Shown: positions 776 through 40,990 of the stretch, one piece after another
Layout: each line of letters opens with the position of its first letter
How positions within the stretch are numbered: the first letter of the stretch is position 1
IMG/VR virus record: IMGVR_UViG_3300030102_000150
Span: 1-40,990 of that record
DNA from: a virus
Reading direction: 5' to 3' (one strand)
DNA: 40,990 nucleotides
Program-made: the position numbers and the translations under genes
The notes under the pieces: model-generated
What the model was told of the DNA's origin: nothing
Database searches by the model: none
What the model saw: only the letters and a program-made list of their open reading frames with translations

Positions 776-812
776 ATACTTATATGTTACTATATAATTT
801 TATTCGTGTCAA
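776..812 (-). promoter_or_regulatory. Promoter upstream of SSB, TAACATATAAGTAT class
   Basis: On the minus strand TTGACA (812-807) is followed by a 17-bp spacer and TAACAT (789-784), the start of the 14-nt string TAACATATAAGTAT. The same 14 bases occur upstream of terS (9711-9724) and of the thyX cluster (5438-5425). It lies in the short gap between polymerase and SSB. A sigma70-like promoter is inferred from spacing and repetition. Confidence 0.72.
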
Positions 813-5463: not shown

Positions 5464-5670
5464 CTATTCTTTATGTTTTTCTTTTAAATTAAATAGTGAT
5501 GCTAATTCACCCTGCACATCGTCTATCTTGAATGCTCTATACAGATCATCTAAACCGTATTGATTATAGACAGTTACATTTATCTCATCCTTACATAAGG
5601 TACAGTAGTATCTGTCCATCCTCACATCTTTGAACGTTGCATCTGCTCTGTTACAACAATAACATCTCAT
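5464..5670 (-). CDS. Small zinc-ribbon protein (68 aa)
   Basis: The N-terminus MRCYCCNRADATF and the segment RYYCTLCKDEI provide two cysteine pairs, a typical short zinc ribbon, followed by a polar helix-forming tail ending NLKEKHKE. AAAGGAG lies just before the ATG and forms part of an ATACTTAAAG repeat in the leader, so initiation may respond to folding of that leader. It is the first gene after the internal early-type promoter at 5741-5769. No specific function is recognised. Confidence 0.75.
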   Translation of the reverse strand: MRCYCCNRADATFKDVRMDRYYCTLCKDEINVTVYNQYGLDDLYRAFKIDDVQGELASLFNLKEKHKE

Positions 5671-5769
5671 GTCTCTCTCCTTTAAGTATATTTGTTTAGA
5701 GTATTATTATACTTAAAACAATAATACTTTAAGTATAGATAGGGTATCACAACTAAAATAAATTGTCAA
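5671..5769 (-). promoter_or_regulatory. Early-type promoter with structured leader, copy A
   Basis: On the minus strand TTGACA (5769-5764), a 17-bp spacer and TACCCT (5746-5741) are followed by CTATACTTAAAG, an inverted TTTTAAGTAT, and a second ATACTTAAAG that runs into the ribosome-binding site of the zinc-ribbon gene. The middle element can pair with either flanking one; AGTATTATT and AATAATACT form another 9-bp arm pair. A related cassette lies at 9551-9664. The stop codon of the upstream 72-residue gene is embedded in the -35 hexamer. Confidence 0.68.
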
Positions 5770-8110: not shown

Positions 8111-8731
8111 TCAGTACTTTTTAACTTTCTCTACTATAGTTGTGATACTATTCACAGTGTAACACAATCTACAATCTTTACATTTCTGTCCTGTGCAATT
8201 TTGTTTGTCAGTGTGTTCATCTTGCAACACATTATTAAACGTCTTATCAAAATGCTTTGGCGGTTTACTCATAATGTGTGACTTCATAGGGTTACTGTAG
8301 ATCAACTGTAAATTGCTAGGCTTGTCGTTATCTCGTAACCACCTAAAAACAAGATCAACTCGTTTAGTCCACAATGCAAACGTACACCAAGGATTATCTT
8401 TGACGATAGCGATTAGGTTTTCTAAGTGTTGCATATTGATTAGCTCACCATGTGCATTGAACCTAAACATTGCATCAGTCACTCGTGGTATCTCTTGAGG
8501 TTCAAGTGGTCTACTCGACAACAAGTCACTGTTACGCTGCAATGCACCTTGCATGTTCTTACGGTACGTATTGAGCATAGCGTGACTGTAACAATCACCG
8601 CATATATTCTTACCGTCTTTCTTTCCCTTCTCATGTTGCTTGTTGCAGTAGTCATTCGTAATCGTGTTGGTGCTGATAGCCTTGAAACCGTCAAGTTTAC
8701 CAGTCATCTTGCTTATGTGTACTTGTTGCAT
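8111..8731 (-). CDS. gp88-like cysteine-rich protein
   Basis: The 206-residue product resembles the phage gp88 family: it opens MQQVHISKMTGKLDG, continues SISTNT-like AISTNTITNDYC, then has the hallmark ICGDCYSHAM, and ends in a cysteine cluster CTGQKCKDCRLCY. Five or more conserved-looking cysteines suggest an Fe-S or zinc centre; the family's activity is not established. ATG at 8731 is chosen because AAGGAG lies 5 bases before it; an upstream extension to a TTG at 8791 lacks proper spacing. It is among the first genes of the minus block, so an early host-interaction role is possible (inference). Confidence 0.72.
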   Translation of the reverse strand: MQQVHISKMTGKLDGFKAISTNTITNDYCNKQHEKGKKDGKNICGDCYSHAMLNTYRKNMQGALQRNSDLLSSRPLEPQEIPRVTDAMFRFNAHGELINMQHLENLIAIVKDNPWCTFALWTKRVDLVFRWLRDNDKPSNLQLIYSNPMKSHIMSKPPKHFDKTFNNVLQDEHTDKQNCTGQKCKDCRLCYTVNSITTIVEKVKKY

Positions 8732-8800
8732 GTTTACTCCTTGTGTTGATTTATCTAGTGGTACTCTAAGTGAATACCACCAATAAAGCAACCCTCCTAT

Positions 8801-9040: not shown

Positions 9041-9216
9041 GCGTAACTCCTTTGTTCGCGGTTTGAATGATTAATAAAGTAAGGAGTGTTTTAAATAAGT
9101 CAATAGGGTTTTTAAGTATTTTTAAAATAATTACTGAAAAGGTATAGTTTGTGTCTTTTATGCAACAGTAAGATAGTGAGTATATACATTATAATATATA
9201 CCCTATAGAACAAACA

Positions 9217-9282
9217 CGATAGGTAAGAAGTGCTTACCAATTAATCCAATGGTATCAACTCGATAGGTAAGGATTGTTTACC
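9217..9282. repeat. Paired inverted repeats CGATAGGTAAG...TTACC
   Basis: Two copies start CGATAGGTAAG (9217 and 9261) and each closes with TTACC. The first is a perfect 6-bp stem, GGTAAG-AAGTG-CTTACC; the second is GGTAA-GGATTGT-TTACC. They lie 44 bp apart, about four helical turns, and a third half-site ACCTATC, inverted, lies at 9366-9372. They could be binding sites for a regulator or initiator; no U-tract follows, so they are not typical terminators. Confidence 0.6.
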
Positions 9283-9333: not shown

Positions 9334-9388
9334 TGTGATCACGAATTAATACGTCAAGAGTACTGACCTATCTGTATTTGTGATCACG
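9334..9388. repeat. Two TGTGATCACG palindromic sites 45 bp apart
   Basis: TGTGATCACG occurs at 9334-9343 and 9379-9388; the inner GTGATCAC is a perfect palindrome in both. The 45-bp centre-to-centre distance is close to the spacing of the neighbouring GGTAAG repeats, suggesting dimeric protein binding on one helix face. The binding protein is unknown. Confidence 0.55.
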
Positions 9389-9550
9389 TTCTTGGTTTGT
9401 TCCAGGCAAGGGTGCATTTGTTTACGTTTTGTTCCTAGGGCGGCAAGGGGGGTTTGGGGGGTAGCCTTGTACTGTACAATACAACATAAAATTATCTCAG
9501 AAAAACATTGGCCTATGTAACAAAAAACCTAGGTGGCGGTGTACACTTGT

Positions 9551-9664
9551 AGTACCTTACTTTAAGTATCTTTGTTTAAAGTATAATATAATACTTATAA
9601 CACAATACTTGTAAGGTATATTACTTAAAGTATATAGGGTATCATAAAGAAATCTTGTAGTCAA
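9551..9664 (-). promoter_or_regulatory. Early-type promoter with structured leader, copy B
   Basis: On the minus strand TTGACT (9664-9659), a 17-bp spacer and TACCCT (9641-9636) are followed by ATATACTTTAAGTA, TTATAAGTATTATAT, TACTTTAAACAAA and ATACTTAAAG, in the same order as copy A (5671-5769) but with an inserted segment of about 15-20 bp. It points into the control region towards the first early gene near 9040, which would give a leader of about 590 nt. Confidence 0.66.
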
Positions 9665-9686: not shown

Positions 9687-9724
9687 TTGACAATCACCCC
9701 TAAACCATGTTAACATATAAGTAT
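9687..9724 (+). promoter_or_regulatory. Late-block promoter, TAACATATAAGTAT class
   Basis: TTGACA (9687-9692), an 18-bp spacer and TAACAT (9711-9716), continuing as TAACATATAAGTAT, lie just before the terS ribosome-binding site. The 14-nt core is identical to those upstream of SSB and the thyX cluster. It is the only clear promoter seen for the long plus-strand structural block. Confidence 0.74.
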
Positions 9725-9738
9725 AGGGGAGGATAACC

Positions 9739-10281
9739 ATGTCTATGTATAGCCTATCACAACTAAAGACAGATAACGGAATAATAAGAACCAAGAGTTT
9801 ATTCTACGAGTTATCTTATGACGATCCTGACTTTGCTTTGTTTACTCTCAAGGAAGAAGACATAGTGATGCCTAACGGTAAGTCAGCTACTGCTCTAGGT
9901 AAGTTATACATAGCCTTTGCAACAATGGACCCTACAGAGTACCAGTTCGCTAACGCAGTGTTTGGAAGTTGGGAAGTATGGGAAAAGATGCAAACAACTG
10001 TACCACTCAAGAAACATATTGATAAGTGGCGCAGAGAAGCAGAGGTCAAACGTAAGTCAATGGCCTTTGAGTCTGTAGTAAAAGAAATACAAGAAGGTGG
10101 GCGAAGTAGTTTTACTGCAGCTAAGTTCCTAATCAACGAGGAATGGAAGTCTAGAGAAGACGGAAGAACAGCCCGAAAAGAAAAGAACGCTAAAGATAAA
10201 TCTACATCTCAAGAAGCTTTCGAGAGAGCAGGTGTAAACGATGATCTTAAAAGATTAAAAGATCAAGGTCTAATTAACTAA
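9739..10281 (+). CDS. terS: Terminase small subunit (probable)
   Basis: This 180-residue protein begins MSMYSLSQLKTDNGIIRTK and ends in a charged helical tail (AFERAGVNDDLKRLKDQGLIN), the size and layout of small terminases that recognise phage DNA and load the packaging motor. No single motif is diagnostic; the call rests on its position as the first late gene with terL downstream, on a central helical region (WREAEVKRKSMAFESV) and on its Lys/Arg-rich C-terminus. AGGGGAGG lies 6 bases before the ATG, and AGGATAACCATG is shared with the SSB start. Tail-fibre genes separate it from terL, unlike in T7. Confidence 0.7.
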   Translation: MSMYSLSQLKTDNGIIRTKSLFYELSYDDPDFALFTLKEEDIVMPNGKSATALGKLYIAFATMDPTEYQFANAVFGSWEVWEKMQTTVPLKKHIDKWRREAEVKRKSMAFESVVKEIQEGGRSSFTAAKFLINEEWKSREDGRTARKEKNAKDKSTSQEAFERAGVNDDLKRLKDQGLIN

Positions 10282-40295: not shown

Positions 40296-40990
40296 TACAT
40301 CGGAACCTCTGGTACTTTCGGTTCTGACTTAACGTCTACTAGAAAAACAGGACCGTAGCTGTAGATAAACTTTCGTGCTTCAGGCCAACACTTCTTCTTG
40401 AACTCACAGTAACTACACATGACAGGTAACTTGGTGTTAGGACTTGTCTTAGATTGAGGTACTTGTGCTTGACGTGCTACAGTTAACTCACCGCCTACAA
40501 GCTCTTTAGCCTCAAGCATCTCCTCTTCTTTTGTCTTTAGTTCCTCAGTAAAGTCATAAACATCAAGACATACGTGACCATTCTGTTTATCTATAGCTAG
40601 GAAACCCCCTTGCTTTTTGTTAGTAACCTTATCATCATCTTTACCTGCATAGACGTAACTACTTAACTGACTGATGTACCCAAAAGGATCATCGTCACGC
40701 AATGCACCTTCCTTGAACTTCTTGAAAGCATATGGACTACAAGACTTGACATCAACAGTCATGCCATCAATGACTGCATCACGATGTCCTTTGATACCAT
40801 GCACGTCTAGTCTGTCCTGTTTTCCTCTCACATCATGCCCTGCAGCTATAGCTAGACTCAACGCAAGCTCTTCTATCATGTCACCATAAAAGAACTTTAG
40901 TAATGCGTTATACTCTAAAGGTATAGCCTCTTTAGGTGTGTTTACTTTGTACCATAGTTTTCTTTTACATGGTGTTCCAATAGAAGATAG
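40295..40990 (-). CDS. Cas4/RecB-like exonuclease, main part (continues from position 1)
   Basis: This covers residues 53-283 of the gene that starts at 255. The PD-(D/E)XK core is GHRDAVIDG (Asp123) and VDVKSC (Asp132, Lys134); the C-terminal cluster CSYCEFKKKCW gives Cys244, Cys247 and Cys253, which with Cys60 forms a probable 4Fe-4S site as in Cas4 and AddB. It most likely acts as the T7 gp6-type exonuclease in host DNA breakdown and recombination. Bases 40893-40990 repeat 2-99. If the start were taken within the linear window (ATG at 40879) the N-terminal cysteine would be lost, which argues for the joined gene. Confidence 0.9.
   Translation of the reverse strand, partial: LSSIGTPCKRKLWYKVNTPKEAIPLEYNALLKFFYGDMIEELALSLAIAAGHDVRGKQDRLDVHGIKGHRDAVIDGMTVDVKSCSPYAFKKFKEGALRDDDPFGYISQLSSYVYAGKDDDKVTNKKQGGFLAIDKQNGHVCLDVYDFTEELKTKEEEMLEAKELVGGELTVARQAQVPQSKTSPNTKLPVMCSYCEFKKKCWPEARKFIYSYGPVFLVDVKSEPKVPEVPM
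40893..40990. repeat. Terminal direct repeat, right copy (circular overlap)
   Basis: Identical to bases 2-99; see the left copy. The reading frame of the exonuclease runs through it without interruption. Confidence 0.93.

Follow-up and report, generated by a model that had tools for sequence, protein, structure and literature searches.

Stabilising stem-loops at the 5' terminus are known from bacterial and phage mRNAs, such as that of ompA, and phage T7 carries a right-end promoter (phiOR) together with a palindrome at its concatemer junction. In the operator arrays of phage repressors, dimer operators are expected to show constant spacing and symmetry within their dyads. The 40,990-base virus record analysed here over its whole length (the window) contains two cassettes, designated c1 and c2, in which a promoter-like sequence is followed by a chain of inverted repeats. 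As with phiOR, a promoter near the right genome end would read outward through palindromes into a direct terminal repeat, but this promoter is of the host type, whereas that of T7 is a phage-polymerase promoter, and an extra copy lies in the early operon. As in repressor operator arrays, two promoters have repeated dyads close to their start sites; the spacing and symmetry of these dyads, however, are unlike those of a dimer operator.

The closest studied relative in logic is the put RNA of the lambdoid phage HK022, which, in the account consulted, is about 70 nt long, forms two stem-loops and binds the zinc-binding domain of the beta' subunit with no phage protein involved (PMC9378689). The likeness consists in RNA hairpins behind early promoters, in two copies per genome, although for the present cassettes it is one of position, their transcription being putative. 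According to the same account, put acts on the host polymerase without a phage protein; the sister phages of the present virus have a terminator downstream of the leader. The cassettes differ from put as described there in that hairpin number and sequence vary and in that the leader of the window is without a terminator by the rule used. The best reading of the cassettes, with a probability of about one half, is a cis-acting hairpin leader that tunes transcription by the host polymerase.

The window encodes, among other proteins, a DNA polymerase, a primase-helicase, a thymidylate synthase, a ribonucleotide reductase and the large subunit of the terminase. Because of this gene content and of the nearest records, the Roseobacter phages CRP-4 and CRP-5, the virus is placed by sequence within the Cobavirinae, in the genus Veravirus or close to it. 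The isolate CRP-4 has both cassettes, and the isolates CRP-5 and ICBM2 have a sister form. Cobaviruses are termed globally distributed in the sea in the title of PMC6775973, and the cultured ones are described as missing an RNA polymerase gene (PMC6775973; PMC6918029), and the host polymerase therefore presumably transcribes these phages. Neither of these genome papers uses the word "promoter" in its main text, and the literature searched yielded no description of the timing of cobavirus transcription and no paper on the hairpin leaders treated here. A two-site leader module with a stable layout and changing sequence, together with a terminator that tracks the promoter type, offers a concrete and testable entry point into this timing.

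Layout, promoter class and conservation of the two cassettes

Both cassettes are read on the minus strand. The c1 promoter (5741-5769) consists of TTGACA (5769-5764), a 17-nt spacer ending in TGA (extended -10), and TACCCT (5746-5741). It is followed by the first element D1, ATACTTAAAGTAT (5724-5736), near the expected transcript start, by the second element TTGTTTTAAGTAT (5721-5709), with ATACTCTAAACAA next in array order, and by the last element ATACTTAAAGGAG (5677-5689), which stands before the ATG at 5670 of a gene for a 68-aa zinc-ribbon protein (5464-5670). A long imperfect hairpin is predicted at 5685-5728, with arms at 5728-5709 and 5704-5685 and the loop AATA at 5708-5705. The c2 promoter (9636-9664) has TTGACT at 9664-9659, an N17 spacer ending in TGA, and TACCCT at 9641-9636; its array (9557-9633) comprises D1 (9633-9621), D2 (9617-9605) and D3 (9569-9557), and includes a predicted hairpin with arms at 9610-9591 and 9584-9565 around the loop TATATT (9590-9585). 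The first-pass annotation had described the c1 promoter with paired elements behind it, a second copy in the same order, and an insertion in one of the two. Promoter and elements are present at c1 as placed, the second copy extends in the same element order from its TTGACT down to about 9557, and the extra material, located in c2, amounts to one more array element.

Promoters were called in the cassettes by consensus and spacing. The -10 hexamer TACCCT shares with TATAAT the first, second and last bases only, and TG precedes it at the extended -10 place. Within the window, the motif TTGACW-N17-TACCCTAT has exactly two exact matches, the c1 and c2 promoters, and four matches if up to two mismatches are allowed (0.92 expected; 2 of 100 shuffles reach four). 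A further promoter-like sequence, TTGACA-N17-TAACAT, is found at 784-812 (minus), just before the ORF at 256-777. Scans of viral contigs for TTGAC-N-TGATACCCTAT returned 112 stretches for spacings 14-16 and 33 stretches for the control spacings 16-20. Among the 75 distinct matches in the fetched contigs, 44 had the spacing of the cassettes, 15, compared with 6, 8, 7, 3, 2 and 5 matches at spacings 14, 16, 17, 18, 19 and 20, respectively, and 31 of the 44 lay outside the window's clade. By this spacing preference, TTGACW-N14-TGATACCCTAT is a real promoter class with an unusual -10, common to diverse phages; with the exact spacing of the cassettes it occurs in 31 distinct contig stretches beyond the window's clade (e.g., L306, L303, L272 and L269). 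The leaders behind spacing-15 promoters outside this clade were not more structured than controls (31 vs. 31; median z -0.46 vs. -0.35, p = 0.26), and thus the array does not simply come with promoters of this class. In one contig (L217), a hairpin-forming CTAACAG-ATA-CTGTTAG directly follows a TTGAC..TGATACCCTAT match of another spacing.

For the comparison with relatives, all of which are related sequences and, where metagenomic, fragments, 41 IMG/VR loci were fetched by their relative of the first late gene; 22 were near relatives with upstream DNA, six ended too near the gene, and 13 were more distant and had another leader type. It had been proposed that the conserved order in two places implies function and that relatives lacking the paired elements would speak against it. 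The opposite was found, since promoter and paired elements are kept across relatives: c2 was present in all 22 near loci with DNA there, in CRP-4 and in the window (with the -35 TTTACA in L019 and L020), and c1 in all 19 sources in which the zinc-ribbon start was found among 43 examined (17 loci, CRP-4 and the window; -10 TACTCT in L019, L021 and L022). A separate zinc-ribbon search, in contigs partly the same as before, found c1 in 28 of 29 loci; in the one without it (L074), the zinc-ribbon match is 38% over half of the protein. Four loci (L008, L011, L014 and L015) contain an extra 49-bp array unit. A DNA search with the c2 region retrieved one record, CRP-4, which matched at its c1 (75.2%, two places). 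Among the matches listed in the pattern scan, L115 and L161 share the promoter and the first element and have other sequence downstream. In L115 two tandem hairpins with asymmetric internal loops follow, and L161, for which six further relatives were found, stands before a homologue of the first late gene (40% identity).

Hairpin arms and operator dyads

The sequence TACTTWAAGTA, with at most one mismatch, occurs seven times in the window (2.2 expected; none of 100 shuffles reaches seven), and four of these matches lie in the cassettes. Along the RNA strand the array reads as a row of hairpins; in the main unit the arms are about 20 nt long, the loops measure 3-12 nt and mismatches occur at regular places, with the ATACTTWAAGTAT dyads at the junctions, where one hairpin ends and the next one starts. 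The earlier annotation had left open whether such an array is a set of operators or an RNA switch. In a DNA operator array, a dimeric regulator encoded by the phage would bind the ATACTTWAAGTAT dyads and jointly repress or activate the two promoters. The 13-bp dyads at both promoters, the first of them at the expected start site, and the ACTTAAGT-like dyads that also occur in sister-phage leaders are consistent with this possibility. Half-site spacing, however, is not constant, with CTT-1-AAG and CTT-2-AAG within one array and a spacing of 0 in sister phages. Moreover, no DNA-binding family was detected in ten early ORFs searched against Pfam, eight of them also against PHROGs, most of which matched no family at all; in ICBM2, one gene carries a helix-turn-helix annotation.

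The two explanations also differ in the partner to which a variable base should be matched. The test applied covers a single base in each half-site and is restricted to elements whose A/T spacer is 1-2 nt long. Complementarity at that base was raised between neighbours, from the right half of an element to the left half of its successor (26 of 39; permutation p = 0.0002), whereas within one dyad the variable base was asymmetric, with complementarity in 15 of 57 cases (18 informative arrays of 27 types). After collapsing to 13 distinct patterns, nine of which were informative, the values were 18 of 29 for neighbours (p = 0.024) and 9 of 38 within dyads. Complementarity also runs on through the arms outside the dyads: in 16 distinct units, 93 of 144 outer-arm positions were complementary to their own partner (mean 68.1 and maximum 86 in 5,000 permutations), values that are somewhat generous since the units were chosen by pairing score and motif, which favours pairing. 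In an alignment of 15 hairpins, which omits the one unit with shortened arms, 74.4% of the cells were paired compared with 34-56% in slid alignments, and the covariation score was reached by 8 of 500 shuffles; the aligned rows are related, so that such permutation values overstate significance. After the neighbour-versus-dyad test, 13-bp operators were dropped as the first choice for the elements, and an operator array is now considered unlikely, if still a serious possibility. Covariation of the arms is stronger across loops than inside dyads. The elements are thus best seen as the arms of imperfect hairpins in tandem, and RNA structure rather than dimer operators is favoured but not proven by these sequence comparisons.

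As to the compensatory changes for which a search in relatives had been suggested, complementarity and covariation of the arms are raised, but RNAalifold returned no consensus structure for the 15 hairpins, and the number of pairs with double changes in their alignment was not above that in shuffles. An Rfam search at gathering thresholds gave no matches in the window, ICBM2, CRP-5 or L115. Folding of the leader, also suggested earlier, does predict hairpins, but its energy alone is not exceptional in the genome, as the best 100-nt windows of c1 and c2 rank 12 and 228 among 1,636. Leaders folded alone had z-scores of -0.2 to -4.4 (18 c1) and -1.0 to -5.4 (15 c2). The fold z-score was rejected as a proof, the fold energies of c1 and c2 not being outliers genome-wide.

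With RNA as the active form, G-U pairs would be expected to favour folding of the transcript strand over its complement. The transcript strand folded better in 21 of 28 clusters (87 leaders), and over the 28 clusters the mean strand difference went beyond composition, being lower than in any of 60 composition-matched shuffle sets. This signal arises from the 17 clusters that do not belong to the clade of the window (again none of 60 shuffle sets as low). Within that clade, its 11 clusters showed no preference for the transcript strand (36 of 60 shuffle sets as low), a result compatible with operators; the RNA reading there consequently leans on the covariation of the arms and on the relatives. 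On balance, the inverted-repeat chains behind both promoters most likely fold as hairpins in newly made RNA.

The right genome end and the leaders of sister phages

No gene adjoins c2, and the first listed ORF starts about 600 nt away, past a terminal-repeat-like sequence whose start, ATTGTACAGTACAAGGCTACCCCCC (9456-9480, minus), resembles the start of the ICBM2 repeat, ATTGTACATACAGCAGGCTACCCCC. In ICBM2, for which the repeats are annotated, the corresponding promoter (40364-40392) is followed by a terminator-like site (40627-40646) and by the repeat from 40749 on; in the linear genome this unit occupies the right end and faces outward. Because the repeat-like start at about 9480 of the window resembles that of ICBM2, c2 would, by similarity, likewise lie at the right genome end and read outward into the terminal repeat. 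The order of outward promoter near the right end, palindromes and direct terminal repeat was thus encountered in ICBM2 itself and in the window by similarity only. On the opposite strand a divergent late promoter-like site, TTGACA-N18-TAACAT (9687-9716, plus), precedes the late operon, the first ORF of which is at 9739-10281; its ICBM2 counterpart is at 40314-40286. The same promoter scan found no promoter in positions 1-800 of ICBM2. In the window, the noncoding stretch that separates the first early gene from the repeat-like motif contains two direct-repeat hairpins, GGTAAG..CTTACC-TATCG (9202-9282), and a similar pair occurs in CRP-4 (L001, about 330-390). TGTGATCAC(A) palindromes are repeated in the terminal-repeat region of the window (about 9336-9390) and in the repeat regions of L029-L038.

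This location raises the possibility, by analogy with T7, of a DNA function at the genome end, in which outward transcription and the palindromes by the terminal repeat would aid concatemer processing, packaging or replication. The repeat-like motif, where found, lies about 150-370 nt after the -10 of the outward promoter, and T7-like concatemers are inferred for cobaviruses in PMC6775973. However, the same module is present at c1, far from the genome ends, the phages presumably use the host polymerase, and ICBM1, of the sister genus Siovirus, has no such outward promoter within the stretch scanned. A function of this kind is therefore regarded as improbable.

For the leader reading, the sister phages provide a comparison of promoter and terminator. 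Promoters were searched in 42 loci, 38 of which had one by pattern; the other four (L254, L257, L258 and L259) were dropped from later counts, and a further scan yielded 28 loci of the sister type, some overlapping the earlier ones. All but one of the 35 non-TACCCT leaders, many of them near-duplicates, have a perfect TTGACA-N17-TATAAT, the exception being L240 with TACACT. In 33 of the 38 leaders there is an intrinsic terminator ahead of either the terminal-repeat-like motif or the stretch end; of the five without, L230, L032 and L255 are truncated, and L253 and L256 are of the TACCCT type. When the sister type (L225-L251 and L029-L039) was compared with the TACCCT type (L115, L253 and L256 together with 24 leaders from the window's clade, among them those of CRP-4 and the window itself), the terminator tracked the promoter type, being found by the same rule in 33 of 33 sister-type leaders of sufficient length and in 1 of 27 TACCCT-type leaders. 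This single case, in L016, is weak (-13.4 kcal/mol), and there is none in the window. Under a stricter T-run rule, L038, from the same contig as L227, had no terminator.

Some sister-type leaders also form rows of tandem hairpins. As in ompA-type stem-loops, the predicted folds of 14 of the 38 leaders of the sister-type set begin to pair 6 nt past the -10, where the transcript is expected to start. Counted by cluster, the start of the strongest hairpin lies 5-6 nt past the -10 in 6 of the 17 clusters that do not belong to the window's clade, whereas in 8 of the 11 clusters within it the start is at least 14 nt away, unlike in the ompA type. A 5'-terminal hairpin as a universal rule was rejected, as the position of the strongest hairpin differs between the groups. 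A formal count for the sister hairpin gave no double changes, in an alignment that was poor across types.

The zinc-ribbon gene and a possible mechanism

The c1 cassette precedes the zinc-ribbon gene, in whose product C3, C5, C6, C23 and C26 are invariant in both alignments. The protein has no family match in Pfam or PHROGs and one non-significant match in the PDB (E = 0.48), and its structure model is of moderate confidence (pLDDT 68). In CRP-4 (MK613346.1, 1760-1963) the ORF apparently starts at 1760, compared with the annotated start at 1832 (gp06), and c1 lies directly upstream. An RNA switch had been proposed for c1, in which the centre element pairs with either the first or the last element and the latter pairing covers the ribosome-binding site. 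The predicted c1 fold is instead a single long nested hairpin, in which the first element pairs with the last around a central hairpin, and not a simple either/or arrangement; because the elements are self-complementary, other pairings are possible. In the window phage the last element does overlap the ribosome-binding site AAAGGAG, so that alternative pairing might cover or free it, but this overlap is not conserved, the site lying outside the array elements in L016 (where it is within a separate small predicted hairpin), L018, L158 and L019, and c2 has the same array with no adjacent gene. On these two grounds the switch was rejected, and it is now considered very unlikely. That the cassettes are functionless AT-rich, palindrome-rich DNA retained by common descent and tandem duplication, as the unremarkable fold energies and the duplicated 49-bp unit would allow, is most improbable given an array kept at two separate sites despite turnover of sequence and unit number, and given L115 and L256, in which other sequences form a similar layout.

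Under the favoured reading of a hairpin leader acting in cis, each cassette would comprise a host sigma-70-type promoter and a transcribed, promoter-proximal chain of inverted repeats, which in the nascent RNA would form AT-rich, imperfect hairpins in tandem, of the dimensions given above, the self-complementary ATACTTWAAGTAT elements being the meeting points of neighbouring hairpins. c2 may be this clade's form of a conserved transcription unit that faces outward at the right end in Veravirus-like genomes and is composed of promoter, leader hairpins, a terminator in the sister phages, and then the terminal repeat. c1 would be a second copy inside the early operon, placing the zinc-ribbon gene and those that follow it under the same control. 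The leader would act at the RNA level on transcription by the host polymerase because the relatives are without an RNA polymerase of their own, and it may determine how much of the transcript persists or extends beyond it. Transcript amount is suggested as the controlled quantity because the leader is promoter-proximal, structured and kept despite sequence change, and because the terminator tracks the promoter type. The effect would be exerted in cis, on RNA decay or on the polymerase of the host, and the two most natural routes would be protection of the 5' end and altered pausing and termination as with put, either alone or together.

A bolder and rather doubtful extension of the leader reading is a protein-free transcription module that senses the genome junction. 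The outward terminal promoter would reach the early genes only when the genome ends are joined in a concatemer or circle, and the hairpin leader would decide, in a put-like manner, how much polymerase continues, with sister lineages balancing output either by a consensus -10 and a terminator or by a TACCCT -10 and a hairpin array without terminator. If true, such a module would boost the early genes only after the start of replication, without a polymerase of the phage's own or an N/Q-type protein. Among the early genes themselves, the one at 8111-8791 (minus) has a Pfam match to GP88 (7.3e-09).
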